From positions 1 to 22,211 of the IMG/VR virus record IMGVR_UViG_3300027917_000186: DNA of 22,211 bases; one strand, written 5' to 3'. Of this stretch, positions 1,644 through 17,252 are shown one piece after another. Numbering within the stretch: position 1 is the stretch's first letter; the number at the start of each line of letters is the position of its first letter. Both the position numbers and the translations under genes were made by a program. The DNA is from a virus. The notes beneath the pieces are model-generated. The model had not been told where the DNA came from. It made no database searches and saw only the letters and a list, made by a program, of their open reading frames with translations.

Positions 1644-3173
1644 TTACGCAGTAGCCTTGAACAACACGAAGTTGTTAGCAGCCTGAGTAACCAAACAACG
1701 CTCAGAAAGGAAATGAACCTTCATTACGTCTTCTCCTGAAGTAGCAGCACCACCTACAGAACCTGTAATCCAAGACTTCATTCTTCGGTCATCAGCTTCA
1801 GAAGCACGATAACGAGCGTGAAGGAATGGTCTACGAATGTTAGTACCTAACATCTGGTCGTAAACGGTAGTTGTTCCAGCAGGAACCAATACACCCTCTA
1901 TGTCTCCTGTAAGACCACGAGTAGAAGCATCGTTAAGATATTTCCAATCAGTCTTGTAGAAGTCATAAGAACCTCTTCGGAATCCAGAGAATCCTAAGTT
2001 CAGAGCCATTTCAGAGCTGTTCTCGAATACTCCGTAAGAAGTACCACCAGCACCGTAAGAGTTCTGAGCAGCAAGCATATCGTCCATGTCTAGTGACGTA
2101 GCACGATTTAAGAAAAGCATATTCTCCTCAATAGCACCCTGCTTGTCAAGGTTAGCTAGAATCTTGTCGAAATCAGCTAAACCAGTAGCAGCAGTGAAGT
2201 TGTTATACACGTTTCCTCGCTCCTCGATAGCAGCAAAAAGACCTTGTGTACCTTTCACGTTAGCACTAGCACTACCTCCAGCTAGTTGTCCGATAGCAGC
2301 AGAAGGAGTACCTGCTCCATCAACATCAGCAGATGCAAGCTCACCTTCTACAGAAACCATCTCTAGGTAATCCTGAAAACGTAGACGAGTCTCGCCTTCA
2401 GCCTTCAAGTACCAAAGGTATCCAGAAAGTCCAGCCTCATCAGTAACTTCAACCCAACCAATTTGAGAAGCGTCAGAACCTGAAACCTCATACTGGTCTT
2501 TGATGATTACTGGGCTATTGTTGTACTGAGTGAATGATGGTGTAATAGAACCAGTCATAGAGTCAGTACCCTTACCAAATTCAGAGCCGTACACGAAGAT
2601 TTTAATCTCTCCACCGTTAACATCGTTACGAACGGCATCCAAGTTAGCAGCAGTGTAAGGATATGCATTAAGCTTCCAGTTGTTTCCTGGAGAGTTACTT
2701 ACAGGCTCTGCAGCAACAAAACACTTGAGAGAGTTTAGGCTTACCGTGTTGTAAACAACAATAGTAGAACCAGCTCGGATAATAGGTTGAATAGACGCTC
2801 CAGCAGAGTTTTCACCAGCTACATCCTGAATCAAAGTTGTACTACCACCAATAGTAATATTTGATGCGTTAGCAGGTACCCCACTACCACCCATACCACT
2901 CTCGAAAGAAAGGTGTAGACGGTTTTGCTCAGACCAAATAACTTGGTCAGAAGTCATTGGCATCTCAGCCCCAACCATACGAAGAAAACCAGAGATTGTA
3001 CGGTTACCGTAACGCTCTACTTCAGCTTCATAGATTTCAGGTAGATACTGCTGTGCGAAGTCGTTTCCGCTTCCATCAGCAAAGTTTAAATAAGAACCTT
3101 GAGTAATACTCTTAAATGGAGTAGGTACCAAGGAAAACGAACCCAACGGGTCGTTAGTTGCAAATGTTCCCAT
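1644..3173 (-). CDS. Major capsid protein, HK97-fold (509 aa)
   Basis: This is the likely building block of the icosahedral head. The N-terminus reads MGTFATNDPLGSFSLVPTPF and is followed by QQYLPEIYEAEVERYGNRTI and a FLRMVGAEMPMTSDQVIWSE stretch. Length and sequence style match the major capsid proteins I recall from crAss-like and marine Bacteroidota phages. The neighbours agree: a scaffold-like gene ends 7 bases upstream, with portal and large terminase before it. The gene is richer in G+C than its neighbours (one sampled 60-base line gave about 47%, against about 30% in the scaffold gene and 38% in the portal gene) and its early arginines use CGT, both consistent with selection for high expression. 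The strong terminator just downstream fits this. No catalytic motif is expected. The fold is inferred from family resemblance, not shown by any motif. Confidence 0.85.
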   Translation of the reverse strand: MGTFATNDPLGSFSLVPTPFKSITQGSYLNFADGSGNDFAQQYLPEIYEAEVERYGNRTISGFLRMVGAEMPMTSDQVIWSEQNRLHLSFESGMGGSGVPANASNITIGGSTTLIQDVAGENSAGASIQPIIRAGSTIVVYNTVSLNSLKCFVAAEPVSNSPGNNWKLNAYPYTAANLDAVRNDVNGGEIKIFVYGSEFGKGTDSMTGSITPSFTQYNNSPVIIKDQYEVSGSDASQIGWVEVTDEAGLSGYLWYLKAEGETRLRFQDYLEMVSVEGELASADVDGAGTPSAAIGQLAGGSASANVKGTQGLFAAIEERGNVYNNFTAATGLADFDKILANLDKQGAIEENMLFLNRATSLDMDDMLAAQNSYGAGGTSYGVFENSSEMALNLGFSGFRRGSYDFYKTDWKYLNDASTRGLTGDIEGVLVPAGTTTVYDQMLGTNIRRPFLHARYRASEADDRRMKSWITGSVGGAATSGEDVMKVHFLSERCLVTQAANNFVLFKATA

Positions 3174-4373: not shown

Positions 4374-6779
4374 TCATCTTGGCTCAAATTGCTCTAAACC
4401 AATACCACCCAACACATCGTTTCCAGAGGACTCAAAGTCTGTTGGTAGCAAGTTGTTTTTTCTTTGGTTGATGAGTTCACTCTGTTGAGTACCCTGCATC
4501 TTAATTCTTTTATCTTTTCGGTCCTCTATCTCTTGTTCTTTTTGACCCTCAGCATTAGCCCTTACTTGAGCTAACTGCATGTTAAAGTTAAACTCAGCTT
4601 GCATCAACTCTCTCTTAATCTCAGCTTCAGCTCTAAGCCTTTGTATTTCAAACTGAGACTTAGCTTGCTCTATGTTAACCTTTTCTTGTGTTAACGCTTG
4701 TTGTTTTTGAACCTCAGCAAACGCAGCCTTTTCAGCAGCCTCAGCATTAGCTTGAGCTTGAGCTTGAATGTTTTGCAACTGAGCCTGTCTATCGGCCTCA
4801 ATCTTTTTCTTTCTTTTCTGCTTTAATATCTCGTTAGCAAGCTTTATGTTCTGTATCTCTCGAATGTCTATAACATCCTCTATGTCGATACCACCACTCT
4901 TTAATGCAATCTGTATGTTTTGTTCAAGCTGTGCTTTTTCTTCATCCTCTGGCTCAAGCTCTAGGTATATACCAAAGTCATGTAGGTGTAATTTACTTAT
5001 TTCTTGAAGCGTACCTACATTGTATGCACTTATTGCCTCCTGAAGTGAGTTGTTTGTCAATGCAAACTCAATAGAATCTGCAATCCTTAGAGATATGTTT
5101 TCGCACGTTCTAGCGGATAAATAAAGGCTAGACTGTAGTATGTGTCGTGTCGCTACATTTGATGCGTTAGCGGCAAGCTTTTGAAGTCCTACAAGCGTGT
5201 CCTCCATAGGTGCGCTACCGTCACGAGCTTCGTTAAGCCCTGTGACATCCCTAATCATTTGTAAGTAATACTGATAGGTGTTAATTAATGCCGATAACTT
5301 TGCCTGACCGTTTGATGAACTTAGTTCCTGTATAGGAACCTTACCTCTATTCATATCACCATCCTGTGTCAGAGACCTACCTAGTATACTACCCGTTTGG
5401 AAGTACATGTTCAAAGCCTCTTGGGGATTATAACTTGTACCATTACCCAAATCCACCTCTGCTAATCCATCTACATCTAGGTATACTCCGTCTGGGACCA
5501 ACTTAGATATGACCTGCTGTATCTTTAAGTTTGTAATATTTATCATATCAGCAAACCCAGTAATCTTACTTACCGTTGACTCTATCCTACCCTTATACAT
5601 TCTTGGGGCAGAGATAGCGTAATTCATATTGACCTTTGTTGTGTCAGCGTATGGCCTTGTCATATTCTCTGACAGTCTCCAATCAATCATTTGGTCGTAT
5701 CCAAGAATCTTAGCACCAGTGAACAACACCTCTATAGTCCTAGACACTTTCTTAAATGTGTCCGATGGTGGTGGGTCAAAAGAATCTGTCTTTTCTATAA
5801 CCTTCTCAAGACCATTACCAGTTTGCTTTAACTTAAACACCTGATTCATATACGTCTTGTACTCAAAGTATAAAACCTGAACTGTGTTCTCGTCATAGTC
5901 GTTCCAACCAACAACATAGTCGCTTCTGTTACCCATCTTAGATATTCTATCTAACTCTTCCTCAGAAATAAATGGGTACTGCTTTTTAAGTTCTGGTATT
6001 GTTATAGACTTAACCTCACCAACATAGTAAATATCATCAAAGTTTGGGTCCTCAGTATACGACCAAACCATTTTAGCTGGGTCACAGTAGTTTACTACAA
6101 CACCCTCAGCCTTGTTCCAATCAGTTTTTACCGCAGCAATACCAAGAACTGTTAAGTCATGGTTCAATCTTCTCCTTATCAGCTCAAATTTATTCTTATC
6201 CAAGGTATTATTTATAACCTCTTCTTCAGCTATCTCTATGGATGGCTTGTACTTGAGTTGCATGTGGATAGATATCTCCTCCTCTGTTTCTGGAAGATTG
6301 CTTTGGTCTGGGGTACTGTACAGGTCTAGCCCCATCATCTGCTTTATTTGTTCTATCTCTGCCTTAGCGGTAATATCCCGTAGTAATCCAGATGCGTAGT
6401 TTGTTCTTTTCTTTATAGACTCTGGGTCTTGAGCATAAGCATTAATCTTATACTTCTTCTCCGACATACCATTAACAACGATGTCAACAAACTTAGATAT
6501 AACTGGTACTGGCTTCCAGTCTAAGTTAAGGTATGATAGGTCACCGTTAATAGATAACTCATCCTTATACTTCTGTATTGGCTGCTCACCTCTAGCGTAA
6601 AGCCTTAGGTTGTGGTACTTGTTCCAATTAGTTGCAAACCTGTTACCGCTTCTCCCACCATGAAACCACTCACCCTCTATAGCCCTCCCTACTTGAACGC
6701 CATATTCAAAGCTCTTTTTCTCCTCATCGCTAACGACTTGGCTTGGGAACGAACTATTTGGATTTGTACTTATATTCAT
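4374..6779 (-). CDS. Portal protein (801 aa)
   Basis: The portal forms the dodecameric ring at one head vertex through which DNA is packaged and ejected. The evidence is size, position and sequence style: it overlaps the large terminase gene by four bases (ATGA) and precedes the scaffold and capsid genes. A mixed alpha/beta body covers about residues 20-640, with recognisable stretches such as DWKPVPVISKFVDIVVNGMS and a region around RDVTGLNEARDGSAPMEDTL. The last 150 residues hold a long Gln/Ala/Glu-rich coiled coil (about 650-770), then an acidic tail ending in EQFEPR. This long C-terminal coil matches portals I recall from crAss-like phages and would be expected to project into the head as a barrel. 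Translation is likely coupled to the terminase. Confidence 0.85.
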   Translation of the reverse strand: MNISTNPNSSFPSQVVSDEEKKSFEYGVQVGRAIEGEWFHGGRSGNRFATNWNKYHNLRLYARGEQPIQKYKDELSINGDLSYLNLDWKPVPVISKFVDIVVNGMSEKKYKINAYAQDPESIKKRTNYASGLLRDITAKAEIEQIKQMMGLDLYSTPDQSNLPETEEEISIHMQLKYKPSIEIAEEEVINNTLDKNKFELIRRRLNHDLTVLGIAAVKTDWNKAEGVVVNYCDPAKMVWSYTEDPNFDDIYYVGEVKSITIPELKKQYPFISEEELDRISKMGNRSDYVVGWNDYDENTVQVLYFEYKTYMNQVFKLKQTGNGLEKVIEKTDSFDPPPSDTFKKVSRTIEVLFTGAKILGYDQMIDWRLSENMTRPYADTTKVNMNYAISAPRMYKGRIESTVSKITGFADMINITNLKIQQVISKLVPDGVYLDVDGLAEVDLGNGTSYNPQEALNMYFQTGSILGRSLTQDGDMNRGKVPIQELSSSNGQAKLSALINTYQYYLQMIRDVTGLNEARDGSAPMEDTLVGLQKLAANASNVATRHILQSSLYLSARTCENISLRIADSIEFALTNNSLQEAISAYNVGTLQEISKLHLHDFGIYLELEPEDEEKAQLEQNIQIALKSGGIDIEDVIDIREIQNIKLANEILKQKRKKKIEADRQAQLQNIQAQAQANAEAAEKAAFAEVQKQQALTQEKVNIEQAKSQFEIQRLRAEAEIKRELMQAEFNFNMQLAQVRANAEGQKEQEIEDRKDKRIKMQGTQQSELINQRKNNLLPTDFESSGNDVLGGIGLEQFEPR

Positions 6780-8992
6780 CTATCTATTATTTTGGAAACA
6801 CTACCAGTATTGTCATATCTTTTAAAGCCAAGTTTAATATTGTTTCTAACCACTTTGTTTATAGGTGCGTATCTATTTTTGTTACAAGCCATTATTGCTA
6901 GTCCTGAACTAATAGACGCATCAAACTTTGTTCTGTTGTTTATATCAAATCTTGCCCAATCATTTAATGTTCTATCGAAATACATATCACCGTATTGGTC
7001 ATCACCTATGACCCCAACACACTCGTCTATGTAAGTCTCTATTGCGGCTGCATGAGCCTGCTTAACGTCTTCACTTGAGTTAGGTATACCACCTATCTCT
7101 CTTTCTGTTTGTGAGAGGTTGTTCCAAGTCCTATCTGGTCTATTCATAGAGTAACCTCTATAACCCCTTCTTTTAATGTGATACAAGAGTCTTGGCTTGT
7201 TATTCTCACAAAGTATTGGCATACCGTAAAAAACAATAGCCATCAATATATCCTCAAAAAATATCTCAGCGGTCTGTGGTCTAGATATATACTCTAGAAA
7301 AAAGTGGTTTGCTGGGGCCTCCTCCATAGAAAACTTTGTCAGTCCGTGAAGAGAACCATTTGAACCTACGCCACTTACAGTACCCGATATATCGTAACTA
7401 TCACAGCCGAATGCCCCTAAGTGTTCGTTACCAGGGTACTTAACCCCATTTTTTATTATTACTCTATTTTGAAGATTTGTGTTAGGAACCCATGAAATTA
7501 AAAATCTTCCGTTATTGCTAGGTAAAAATATCACCCTTGTATCCTTTATACCATTCTCCCATTGAAAGTTACCCTTTGTAAGTATATTGGTGTTTCTTAG
7601 GTCTTGGTTATAATCTATCTGCTGATATATCCTAGTGAGGTTAAACAAAGAGTTCTTAGCCTCATCCCTAAACGCATGCTCCACTGTTCTTGGGAACTGC
7701 CTATAAAATTCATTAAGACCATCCTGGTCGCTCTTTAATCCCTCTACCTCGTTCTCCCAGTAATCAATAACACCCATCCGTATTTCATTACCAAAGGTAT
7801 CGTAAACTTTTTTCTCTGGTGTTTCAAATACAGGGTATCCATACTCGTCTATGTATCCCTCGTAGTTCCACTCCATCGGTATAAACAGGCTATACAACCC
7901 AGATGCTGTCTGCCCGTTTGCATTTCTTTTGGTTACATCAGAGTCCTCGTACAACTTCTTGAAGTTCTCACCTCCCTTGTCTAGAGAGTTTGATGTACTC
8001 CCCATCATGCACTTACCAATTACCCTACTACCTAACCTTAGACATGTCTTAGTAACCCTCCAGTTGTTAAGTATGTTTGTGGGTTTCTCCCACTTACCAC
8101 TCTCATCATGTACCAACAACGATAGTTTCTCACCATCGTATGAGTTATCCCCTGTGTTCTTCCAGTCTATGGTTGTGTCAAGACCTGTAATGTCCTCAAC
8201 CTTGTTGTTTGCATCCAGCTTCTTTCTAGTAAACTTAGACGCTGGTACACGGTACGCAAGCTCTGTTTTAGGTCTATCCATACCATCCTGTATGGGTTTG
8301 AAGAAGAACGGGTAGTTAACCGATATTGGCACCACCTTGTCTGTGAACATCTTCTTAGCATCGGGTCCTGTCTTAGACAGTATACCAAACCTTGAGTCAC
8401 TAGATAGTGTTGCTAAGTTTACAGTTTCTGCTGATGACATAAAAGAAAAACCAGAGCGTCTATTCTTTAAGTAGCACATCCCGTAGCTTCTGTGGTCAGC
8501 CTTACAAGCCTCCCAAAATATAAAGAACAATCTGTTAGACTCTCTAAAGTCTGGCTTACCAATATCTATCTTAGACCACTGTAGGTAGTTGTAGTGAGAA
8601 CCTGTTATGTATGTTGGCTTTTTGTTGTTTATAAACCAAAAACCATCTTCTCTTCTAGTAAACTCCGTGTCTATGTAGTCAAACCATTTATTCTTAAACT
8701 CATCTGGTGCCTCATTCCAATCAAAAACACTCTTAAACCTAGATAACTCTTTTGGGTATTCAGTGTACTGCCATTTGTTATCTTTAAACTTAACCACATC
8801 AAACTCTGTAGGTAAAGCTATCTTTAGGTTTTGTATCTCGTATATCTCACCAATCTGACCGTTCTTACTTATAACTACAATGTCGTGGTCTTCATTGTAC
8901 CCATACTTCCACTTCTTTCCATTGTTCATTCTTTTCAGAACATGTGGCTTTATGTGGTCATCTATTATATTTACTAATGTCTGCTCGTACAT
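6776..8992 (-). CDS. terL: Terminase large subunit, packaging ATPase and nuclease (738 aa)
   Basis: This motor pumps DNA into the prohead and cuts the genome. A Walker A-like segment, KNRRSGFSF, lies at about 176-184; it is the variant P-loop common in phages of this group. Walker B is LSLLVHDE at 290-297, with the acidic pair D296/E297, and a coupling motif GSTSN lies at 331-335. The C-terminal RNase H-like nuclease shows GCDSYD (D531), an acidic residue near LCENN (E596), and D691 in RTKFDAS, as expected for a metal-binding triad. The length is usual for crAss-like terminases. The gene shares one base with the gene before it (TAATG) and four with the portal gene after it (ATGA), so all three are probably translationally coupled. 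Confidence 0.93.
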   Translation of the reverse strand: MYEQTLVNIIDDHIKPHVLKRMNNGKKWKYGYNEDHDIVVISKNGQIGEIYEIQNLKIALPTEFDVVKFKDNKWQYTEYPKELSRFKSVFDWNEAPDEFKNKWFDYIDTEFTRREDGFWFINNKKPTYITGSHYNYLQWSKIDIGKPDFRESNRLFFIFWEACKADHRSYGMCYLKNRRSGFSFMSSAETVNLATLSSDSRFGILSKTGPDAKKMFTDKVVPISVNYPFFFKPIQDGMDRPKTELAYRVPASKFTRKKLDANNKVEDITGLDTTIDWKNTGDNSYDGEKLSLLVHDESGKWEKPTNILNNWRVTKTCLRLGSRVIGKCMMGSTSNSLDKGGENFKKLYEDSDVTKRNANGQTASGLYSLFIPMEWNYEGYIDEYGYPVFETPEKKVYDTFGNEIRMGVIDYWENEVEGLKSDQDGLNEFYRQFPRTVEHAFRDEAKNSLFNLTRIYQQIDYNQDLRNTNILTKGNFQWENGIKDTRVIFLPSNNGRFLISWVPNTNLQNRVIIKNGVKYPGNEHLGAFGCDSYDISGTVSGVGSNGSLHGLTKFSMEEAPANHFFLEYISRPQTAEIFFEDILMAIVFYGMPILCENNKPRLLYHIKRRGYRGYSMNRPDRTWNNLSQTEREIGGIPNSSEDVKQAHAAAIETYIDECVGVIGDDQYGDMYFDRTLNDWARFDINNRTKFDASISSGLAIMACNKNRYAPINKVVRNNIKLGFKRYDNTGSVSKIIDR

Positions 8993-9273
8993 TACTTCTT
9001 AGACCTATTCTCAGCAAAACCAGAGAATACCTTTTTTGGTGCCTCAACTTTTTCTACATTGTTGAGCATATTTTCCTCCTCGTTAATTCTGTTTAAGATT
9101 TCAAACGCATCAAATATTGCAAGCTTTTTAGTGGCCGCTGCGTTCTTTAATCTATCCGCTGATACATCATCCTCACCCCCAGTAACTATTGGCTCTCTAG
9201 CCACCTTAATTAGCTCCTCAACCGCTGCTCGTCCAGCTTGGATTATACTTAGTTTCGCTTCCTTCGTTTCCAT
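8992..9273 (-). CDS. Small protein before the terminase, candidate small terminase subunit (93 aa)
   Basis: This short, mostly helical protein contains the block SADRLKNAAATKKLAIFDAF (about 50-69) and a basic tail (FAENRSKK). It directly precedes the large terminase and shares one base with it (TAATG), the usual place for a small terminase subunit. I recall similar small proteins at this spot in other Bacteroidota phages, but I see no clear helix-turn-helix for DNA recognition. The small terminase call therefore rests on position. The start at 9273 lies inside the end of the upstream gene (56-base overlap), so expression probably depends on translation of that gene. Confidence 0.5.
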   Translation of the reverse strand: METKEAKLSIIQAGRAAVEELIKVAREPIVTGGEDDVSADRLKNAAATKKLAIFDAFEILNRINEEENMLNNVEKVEAPKKVFSGFAENRSKK

Positions 9274-9814
9274 AGGTCAAAACAATATTTTTAGATTTCA
9301 TACAATATAATAACTCACCATCCACAATAAACTCAAACTCTGACTCTGGGGTAAACCCAACAACCATTCCTGGGTGTACATTGTTCTCTTCAAGAATTTT
9401 GTTGCCATACCTAAGTATTCCTGTAAGTGGTTTTTCTTTTTGGGATGACCACTCATCATCATTAACAACGGGTTGTACAAAACAATAATCAAGGTTTGAT
9501 TCATTGTCACCATAAAGATATATCTGCTCTGGTGAACAAGCGTACATATCTTCTTTTATATGGCTACGACTATTCTTTTCATTACCCCTTATGTCGTAAA
9601 ACCTCCTAAACACATTATGGTGGACAATAACCTTGTCACCAACCTTGATATCTGTTACAATAGATAGTGGAGTGGCTATTACCTCTGCCTCGTTACTAAC
9701 GCTTTTGTAGCTTTCAATCTTTGTGTTAGTTACAAACTTAACCCCACCAATATCTTTGGTATTGTTATACCTACCAGATATAGGCTTAACAATGAAATCG
9801 TACACACTTTTCAT
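9218..9814 (-). CDS. Tandem GroES-like (co-chaperonin fold) protein (198 aa)
   Basis: The sequence reads as two GroES-like domains. Domain 1 (about 3-102) has FIVKPISGR, then a polar loop with GGVKFVT in the position of the GroES mobile loop, then VSNEAEVIATPL, KVGDKVIVHHNVFRRFYD and a closing CSPEQIYLYG strand. Domain 2 (about 110-182) has CFVQPV, LTGILRYGNKILEENNVHPG, MVVGFTPESEFEFIVDGELL and CMKSKNIVLTYG. In each, the order of strand, loop, V/GD-type turn and final strand mirrors GroES. The gene stands in the packaging module, far from the groEL/groES pair, and overlaps the small gene before the terminase. It may be a second co-chaperonin, or the fold may have been adopted for a structural role. 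The fold is inferred from pattern; chaperone activity is not shown. Confidence 0.55.
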   Translation of the reverse strand: MKSVYDFIVKPISGRYNNTKDIGGVKFVTNTKIESYKSVSNEAEVIATPLSIVTDIKVGDKVIVHHNVFRRFYDIRGNEKNSRSHIKEDMYACSPEQIYLYGDNESNLDYCFVQPVVNDDEWSSQKEKPLTGILRYGNKILEENNVHPGMVVGFTPESEFEFIVDGELLYCMKSKNIVLTYGNEGSETKYNPSWTSSG

Positions 9815-16554: not shown

Positions 16555-16995
16555 TTACTTGTTTTTATCATTATTCGCAGAAATAATTGATTTAGATAAA
16601 ACTTTATCCATATAACTCCTGCCTAACATAATTTTATTATGGGTGCTAGTAGGTAAATCCTCATGCCCAAGCATTATCTTATATATCTTGTTTGTTAGCT
16701 GCTTAGTCCTTAGAGAGACCTCGTACACATGGTACTTCTGTGTTGTGTGGTTTCTTTTTCTCCAAACCACAATCCAACCGTTCTTGAGTAACCTATCCCA
16801 CCTTCTCTTGTCCCAGCTATAGGAAAACACGCCAGTCTCATAATCCCTCTTAGTGAACCTACCCTCACAGTCTAGGTATATTAAAAGTTCTAGGTCAGAG
16901 TCTGATAAACCATTTGTTTTACAGGCCCACTTCCTTATTGTTCTGTAATGCTTTAATAGGTTTATATCCTTCAGAGTCTGTGGCTCTATCCTCAT
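16555..16995 (-). CDS. Winged-helix (MarR-like) protein, possible late regulator (146 aa)
   Basis: The protein is helical with a winged-helix pattern. The block HYRTIRKWACKTNGLSDSDL (about 16-35) leads into LELLIYLDCEGRFTKRDYE, then WDKRRWDRLLKNGWIVVWRK supplies a recognition-helix-like segment and a basic wing, followed by YHVYEVSLRTKQLTNKIYKI. I recall close relatives in flavobacterial and other marine phages, annotated as MarR-like or winged-helix proteins. It overlaps groES by four bases (ATGA), so it belongs to the chaperonin operon. It could regulate this operon or late genes, but winged-helix proteins can also act in assembly. No effector domain is visible. Confidence 0.65.
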   Translation of the reverse strand: MRIEPQTLKDINLLKHYRTIRKWACKTNGLSDSDLELLIYLDCEGRFTKRDYETGVFSYSWDKRRWDRLLKNGWIVVWRKRNHTTQKYHVYEVSLRTKQLTNKIYKIMLGHEDLPTSTHNKIMLGRSYMDKVLSKSIISANNDKNK

Positions 16996-17252
16996 AAAAC
17001 AACAACAACGTCAAACTCCTTTATCACCTTGTATACCACACCCTTTATCTCCATGTCAAAGCCAGCGTGTCTGTCGTAATAAACCGTGTCACCCTCAGTG
17101 ATACCTTCAACAAGGTTACCAACCTTAGATACTGTGGCCTCTCTGTATCTTATATCATCCTTATGGGCATCAGATAAAATTAATCCACTCTTAGTTTTAG
17201 TGACCCCCTCTTTTATTGGTTGGATGAGCATGTACTTACCTATAGTCCTCAT
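16992..17252 (-). CDS. groES: Phage GroES-type co-chaperonin without roof hairpin (86 aa)
   Basis: This is the lid that would close the GroEL chamber for protein folding in the cytoplasm. It has the GroES order: strand YMLIQPIKEG (7-16), mobile loop about 15-33 with the hydrophobic triplet LIL at 24-26 that docks on GroEL, then EATVSKVGN, GDTVYYDRH and the final VVYKVIKEFDVVVV. Between VGN and GD there are only seven residues, where E. coli GroES has sixteen, so the roof beta-hairpin appears to be missing, as in phage T4 Gp31. That would leave a more open dome. It overlaps groEL by four bases (ATGA) and the winged-helix gene by four. Its place after groEL reverses the common bacterial order. 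Confidence 0.85.
   Translation of the reverse strand: MRTIGKYMLIQPIKEGVTKTKSGLILSDAHKDDIRYREATVSKVGNLVEGITEGDTVYYDRHAGFDMEIKGVVYKVIKEFDVVVVL

Follow-up and report, generated by a model that had tools for sequence, protein, structure and literature searches.

A tandem GroES-fold protein encoded upstream of the large terminase gene in a group of related phages: a candidate Cpn20-like co-chaperonin

What could a further protein of GroES layout be doing among the packaging genes of a virus that also carries a groEL/groES pair? The question is raised by the window, the whole stretch of 22,211 bases of a virus record analysed here, in which the genes considered all lie on the minus strand. An ORF at 9218..9814 (minus strand) encodes a tandem GroES-fold protein of 198 aa, which matches PHROG 13932 'co-chaperonin GroES' with E = 4.5e-18. 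In minus-strand order, the genes for the phage GroEL (17249..18790; PF00118, E 1.8e-55) and the single-domain phage GroES, some small genes, a peptidase-like gene and a large LamG-like gene come first. They are followed by genes for 75 and 74 aa, the tandem gene, a gene for 93 aa (8992..9273; an ORF with homologues in related loci), the gene for the large terminase subunit, terL (6776..8992; PHROG 6681, E 1.7e-164), the portal gene (4374..6779; PHROG 6547, E 7.3e-145), a putative scaffold gene and a gene for a virion structural protein (1644..3173; PHROG 13704 'virion structural protein', E 1.6e-94), which is likely the major capsid protein. The labels peptidase, LamG and scaffold were read from the translations and have no database match behind them. 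The tandem ORF begins 5 bases past the preceding gene and at its 3' end runs 56 bases into the beginning of the 93-aa gene. This one gene separates the tandem gene from terL, so that the tandem lies two genes upstream of terL, as the original prediction had placed it, and the predicted distance of about 7 kb to the true groES (16992..17252, minus strand; PF00166, E 8.2e-10) was found to be about 7.2 kb.

The original prediction had also held that both halves of the protein follow the GroES layout, and this was borne out by structure prediction of the whole chain and of the N-half, with GroES-family matches for each half. Using 86 aligned sequences (the window protein and IMG/VR homologues), AlphaFold2 modelled the whole tandem with a pLDDT of 88 and a pTM of 0.80, and the N-half alone with a pLDDT of 92.5. 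The sole PDB match of the whole chain at E ≤ 0.001 in Foldseek was 7ekq_R (E 1.6e-4), a 'Cpn20 co-chaperonin subunit' that is itself a tandem GroES, and the query TM of 0.56 to this chain compares with 0.17-0.30 for single GroES chains among the matches listed. Similarly, VIA-align placed the whole chain on 7ekq_R with Z 9.6 (157 residues aligned, rmsd 4.0, model residues 1..182), and the next 15 rows were GroES, Cpn10 or T4 gp31 on residues ~100-185 with Z 6.0-8.1. For the N-terminal domain (residues 1-104; 9503..9814, minus strand), the best 16 VIA-align rows all belonged to GroES, Cpn10, gp31 or Cpn20 (Z 5.6-8.0), the best 14 being GroES, Cpn10 or gp31, and below the GroES family came dehydrogenases with Z 5.4 and 5.1, then 4.5 and lower. 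The N-terminal domain of these dehydrogenases has a GroES-like fold. Foldseek returned no match for the N-half at E ≤ 0.001, the best E being 0.012 with GroES chains on top. As VIA-align Z values of 7-8 are the usual best for models without a clear match, these middling scores place the weight on the occupation of the top rows of the N-half by one family. On this structural evidence the N-half is assigned to the GroES fold, and both halves are GroES folds in the models. When compared with predicted viral structures, the tandem matched best a 186-aa protein (E 2.4e-21) and the cpn10 of phi18:3 (E 3.3e-13). A chance resemblance or a wrong fold was rejected on the two models and their structural matches.

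At the level of sequence the two halves differ. The window protein has no Pfam match, PF00166 included. When profiles of the halves were compared by hhalign with host GroES (31 sequences: E. coli and 30 from genomes of one phylum), the C-half (C-terminal domain, residues 105-184; 9263..9502, minus strand) was recognised with a probability of 97 and E = 1.3e-10, whereas the N-half reached an unconvincing probability of 8, or of 34 when phage GroES was added to the set, with an alignment from residue 1 to 63. The link of either half to Cpn10 profiles, which had been put forward for checking, is thus clear for the C-half but not for the N-half. For the Baltivirus-type N-half the corresponding probabilities were 6 and 54. 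The family alignment A2 was made from locus proteins of 171-211 aa thinned to 87 representatives, of which 86 were used; L269 (odd start) and the annotated-record loci L081-L084 were left out, and the start was shifted to a conserved Met in seven sequences. PF00166 was detected at E ≤ 0.1 in 47 of these 86 members, with a best E of 2.2e-6. When three C-halves were scanned alone, those of phi18:3 (34.7 bits, E 1.8e-8) and of the Calle-type tandem L166 (25.2 bits) scored over the Pfam cut-off and that of L055 (17.4 bits) under it, and Pfam Cpn10 was found in none of seven N-halves scanned in the same way. In sequence terms the C-half is related to Cpn10, and the N-half is recognisable mainly by its predicted fold. 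A recent duplication of one GroES is not supported, since a profile comparison between the two halves reached a probability of just 5.5. Cpn20 was absent from the matches of the 86-member family profile against PDB sequences.

How widespread is the gene, and how closely is it tied to terL? A tblastn search over 50,697 phage records gave 77 records at E ≤ 1, comprising 68 from Flavobacterium, 7 from Cellulophaga, Maribacter phage Panino and MW202828, and one IMG/VR scan alone yielded at least 599 relatives; the Panino protein as query found no IMG/VR relatives. Into the locus set we took 80 of 299, 80 of at least 599, 80 of 540, 4 of 4 and 20 of 20 relatives. Of 269 loci collected, 268 have a tandem ORF, and 267 of these show a TerL match no more than 2.5 kb downstream; in the remaining one the sequence ends after just 10 bases. 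Some contigs are represented more than once, having come from several scans, and this, together with close relatives such as the several Elemovirus-like genomes among the 33 tandem-bearing records discussed below, means that the counts are not independent. Among the 208 loci with an ORF-level TerL match, 182 have a homologue of the 93-aa gene in the interval from tandem to terL, and with neighbouring small genes syntenic as well, the linkage to terL alone says little. The gap from tandem to TerL measures ~640-900 bases in 30 of the 208 loci (L193, L195, L238 and others), which suggests that an inserted gene fills it. Remote tandems of 200 aa stand one gene before terL in phi18:3, phi46:3, phi13:2 and phi19:3. 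In phage Gundel, whose TerL is related, the place of the tandem is taken by a 103-aa gene. That the tandem might be an ordinary host gene was considered and, going by the contig titles, rejected: a scan of genome contigs gave 30 loci, 29 of them titled MAG and one bin. One homologue (L290, CP070801.1) lies inside a 1.05-Mb record titled Aenigmatarchaeota MAG chromosome, a placement that could stem from faulty binning or assembly.

In order to compare the putative anchoring segments, loop length was counted between the first two strands of each domain. The loop of the N-domain (residues 12-41; 9692..9781, minus strand) is a mobile-loop-like segment; it measures 30 aa in the window, where it contains GGVKFV, and 27-31 aa in all 90 tandems. 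The C-domain loop, which in the window is shortened (residues 118-126, wider bounds 116-131; 9437..9463, minus strand), has 16-18 aa in 83 of 90 tandems (53 window-like, 24 MW-like and 6 Elemovirus-like) and 25-27 aa in the other seven (3 Callevirus-like and 4 Baltivirus-like). Hydrophobic residues were counted in any four consecutive positions, and all 31 host GroES loops reach three. By the same count, N-loops have three (75/90) or two (15/90), long C-loops three or four (7/7), and short C-loops three (13/83), two (59/83) or one (11/83). With one tryptophan, the window C-loop is among the poorest in hydrophobics; the idea that C-loops of the window lineage are free of a hydrophobic stretch is wrong for many relatives by these counts per four residues. 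Mean information was lowest of 13 segments in the C-loop (1.84 bits) and amounted to 2.84 bits in the N-loop and 3.53 bits in block 59-70, which is among the most conserved and includes H65 and N67, invariant in 86 of 86 members. The HHN motif is missing in the remote phi18:3-type tandem. Shortened and least conserved, the C-loop of the window lineage is under weaker constraint.

The tandem gene is constrained by purifying selection. Whole-gene NG86 dN/dS amounted to 0.069-0.086 in the four computable pairs of five tried, with 0.056-0.077 for the N-half (three pairs) and 0.079-0.104 for the C-half (four pairs, L025 aside); in the fifth pair (L025) synonymous change was saturated and the C-half alone gave 0.30. 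In four pairs the last 14 codons show a synonymous change of 0-0.14, and in the fifth one of 0.46; these values are low when compared to the rest of the gene, as the shared bases with the 93-aa gene would lead one to expect. Within that overlap (9218-9273), the C-terminal tail YNPSW of the tandem shares its bases with the start of the 93-aa gene, and the tail is missing from the aligned tandems of MW202828, Elemovirus and phi38:1. Given its low synonymous change, part of the conservation of the tail may be due to overprinting.

Partner genes were looked for in 33 tandem-bearing records. A groEL was found in 30 of them (24 of 26 plus 6 more) and not found in G001, G018 and phi18:3. A single Cpn10 is present in 31, in 30 of them over the Pfam cut-off (23 plus 7) and in one (G005/L053) by phmmer. 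The two records without it, G001 and G011, end inside or beside that gene: G001 has at its very end a frame of 39 aa with a partial Cpn10 match of 18.1 bits, below the cut-off, and this truncation also accounts for the absence of groEL there. In G011 the groEL gene extends up to the end of the contig. The tandem and the single Cpn10 are present in phi18:3 and in G018, a record whose 72.8 kb come close to the length of phi38:1 but which may be incomplete; lacking a groEL match, both would need the GroEL of the host. Of the tandem types with long C-loops, phi18:3 and G018 are without a groEL match and phi38:1 is with groEL. In one phage, Gundel, neither tandem nor groEL nor single Cpn10 was found. 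The position of the groEL/groES pair varies: it is on the same strand and 7 kb off in the window, whereas in Elemovirus and phi38:1 it lies on the opposite strand, and in phi38:1 also at a great distance. As the 33 records are related phages, common inheritance instead of function may account for the co-occurrence. The window GroEL keeps the ATPase aspartates D52, D87 and D398 (E. coli numbering) and is without a GGM tail. It differs from E. coli GroEL at several apical positions that serve as binding sites. In many of 41 host genomes of one phylum, a frame of ~130-270 aa gives a second and weaker Cpn10 match in addition to the usual groES.

These data lead us to regard the tandem, with reasonable though not strong confidence, as a late Cpn20-like co-chaperonin that is produced from the packaging operon and forms part of a GroEL lid for the folding of late phage proteins; the proteins whose folding it helps are probably the virus's own. 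The place of the gene suggests late expression. The tandem would bind GroEL, in the window lineage most likely with the longer and better conserved N-domain loop as main anchor, and tandem and single GroES, the presumed lid partner, would form a mixed lid of seven domains from about three tandems plus one single; substrates might be capsid, portal or terminase. The co-chaperonin chains of 7ekq, two Cpn20, one Cpn23 and one Cpn11, amount to seven GroES domains, with two matched stretches each in Cpn20 and Cpn23. Tandem and single co-chaperonins of Chlamydomonas form functional hetero-oligomers of seven domains, and concatamers of six or eight domains still work with GroEL (PMC5780408). The pseudo-sevenfold or altered symmetry that the original prediction had suggested for a lid would thus have a solved precedent in chloroplasts. 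On the seven-domain model of the chloroplast and the near-constant co-occurrence in phages, we consider a role in the lid, in the manner of Cpn20, more likely than one in packaging, and a lid of mixed composition more likely than a homo-oligomer. The lack of a Pfam Cpn10 match in the seven N-halves, the C-loop that with 16-18 aa in 83 of 90 tandems is shorter than an ordinary mobile loop, and the apical departures of the window GroEL count against a lid role. A fixed complex is not favoured, as tandem and single gene lie in separate operons, on opposite strands in Elemovirus and phi38:1. A more specific version, in which phages have evolved a chloroplast-style mixed lid tuned to late phage proteins, with unequal anchors in the window lineage, is doubtful, the more so as many short C-loops do contain hydrophobic residues; the short loops of the C-domains would make the anchors unequal, in the extreme leaving about four of seven strong, and phages without groEL would fit such an asymmetric lid onto the GroEL of the host.

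The separate operons would also suit a tandem that forms the lid alone, as a six- or eight-domain ring without single GroES, as the Cpn20 of the apicoplast may do, and lone tandem co-chaperonins can work with sevenfold chaperonins (PMC5780408). However, a single GroES accompanies the tandem in 31 of 33 records, among them two in which no groEL was found, and we consider a tandem-only lid unlikely. Still less probable is that the fold was recruited away from GroEL to packaging or head assembly, where the tandem would act with terminase or portal and not be a major part of the virion. Such a role would fit the constant nearness of TerL, an N-half that has no Pfam Cpn10 signal and yet an invariant H65/N67 in a highly conserved block, and a short, poorly conserved C-loop. 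But the 93-aa gene is syntenic too, the remote phi18:3 type does without the HHN motif, the N-loop is retained and the tandem co-occurs with a single Cpn10.

Mass spectrometric notes in two phage records bear on the same point. In the phi18:3 record, 12 proteins are marked as MS/MS-detected, including gp099 at the portal position, and tandem gp096 and TerL gp098 are unmarked. In positions 44000-72529 of the phi40:1 record, marks stand on the portal gp091, the eight proteins after it and gp087, the note on gp085 being truncated, and again tandem gp089 and TerL gp090 are unmarked. This weakens the tandem as a virion component and with it the original suggestion of recruitment as a head or portal component; a low-copy virion part could be missed, and TerL, transient on heads, is equally unmarked. 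The GroEL of phi38:1 was reported to be dimethylated in free virion samples (PMC13288928); as these samples were virions released after lysis, this GroEL need not be built in. A last reading, that the tandem caps another ring such as the host ClpP, in the way of Cpn11/20/23 in the solved Chlamydomonas ClpP entry, takes up the fact that the best structural match is a Cpn20 chain of a ClpP entry. The presence of tandem Cpn10 chains in that entry would be enough to explain the match, no pointer to ClpP was seen in the locus, and we regard a ClpP cap as very improbable.

The original prediction knew of no described phage system with a separate tandem beside terL plus a groEL/groES pair. The arrangement itself was confirmed; its novelty was not, as the same arrangement exists in deposited genomes of Elemovirus, Callevirus phi38:1 and MW202828. 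Several GenBank/RefSeq records and PHROGs label the gene cpn10 or co-chaperonin GroES, others hypothetical, as KC821614, KC821612 and MW202828 do for the tandem gene. The PHROG 13932 gene of Elemovirus, Callevirus and Panino belongs to the same family (~180-200 aa) and either adjoins terL on its upstream side or is separated from it by one small gene, but the annotations seen say co-chaperonin GroES or chaperonin cpn10 only and leave the tandem unstated. As far as the text available goes, chaperonin cpn10 stands among the core genes listed for the Pervagoviridae, with which cpn10 is meant left unspecified (Table 2 in PMC8776804), and the Panino paper mentions GroEL and GroES homologues (PMC11590407). 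No statement on a tandem build of phage GroES was found in the literature searched, which lay mostly outside subscription papers and supplements. The gene family is thus already known as co-chaperonin, and its tandem build is apparently undescribed in print.

Among known relatives, the Cpn10 of Baltivirus/Bacelvirus (phi18:3, phi46:3, phi13:2, phi19:3) shares the length of 200 aa and the place one gene before terL, and that of phi18:3 is a remote homologue over its whole length (45.9 bits). In contrast to the window protein, these have long loops in both halves and no HHN motif, and phi18:3, in which alone of the four groEL was looked for, has no groEL match. The chloroplast Cpn20 (7ekq_R) likewise consists of two head-to-tail GroES domains, matches the fold of the whole chain and occurs together with a single Cpn10, whereas the window lineage has a short second loop. 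T4 gp31 (1g31_A) is a GroES-fold phage co-chaperonin with Z 6.9 to the N-half and 6.0 to the C-half, but has a single domain. It works with the GroEL of the host, where it replaces GroES. It serves the folding of the capsid protein (PMC5780408).

Tandem GroES is known from plastids, where the question is how an even number of domains sits on a sevenfold ring. The phage version is widespread, has two loop states, occurs both in phages that show a groEL match and in phages that do not, and cultivable phage-host pairs (Cellulophaga, Flavobacterium) are available. Through a phage tandem co-chaperonin, lid symmetry, partial anchoring and substrate tuning could be studied experimentally outside plants, and alongside T4 gp31 there would be a second way in which phages supply a co-chaperonin. 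The TerL proteins of Elemovirus, Callevirus and Panino have ~140 extra residues, and there the tandem abuts TerL with no gene between; a weak profile match (probability 12) hints that in these phages the 93-aa gene may have been fused to the N-terminus of TerL.
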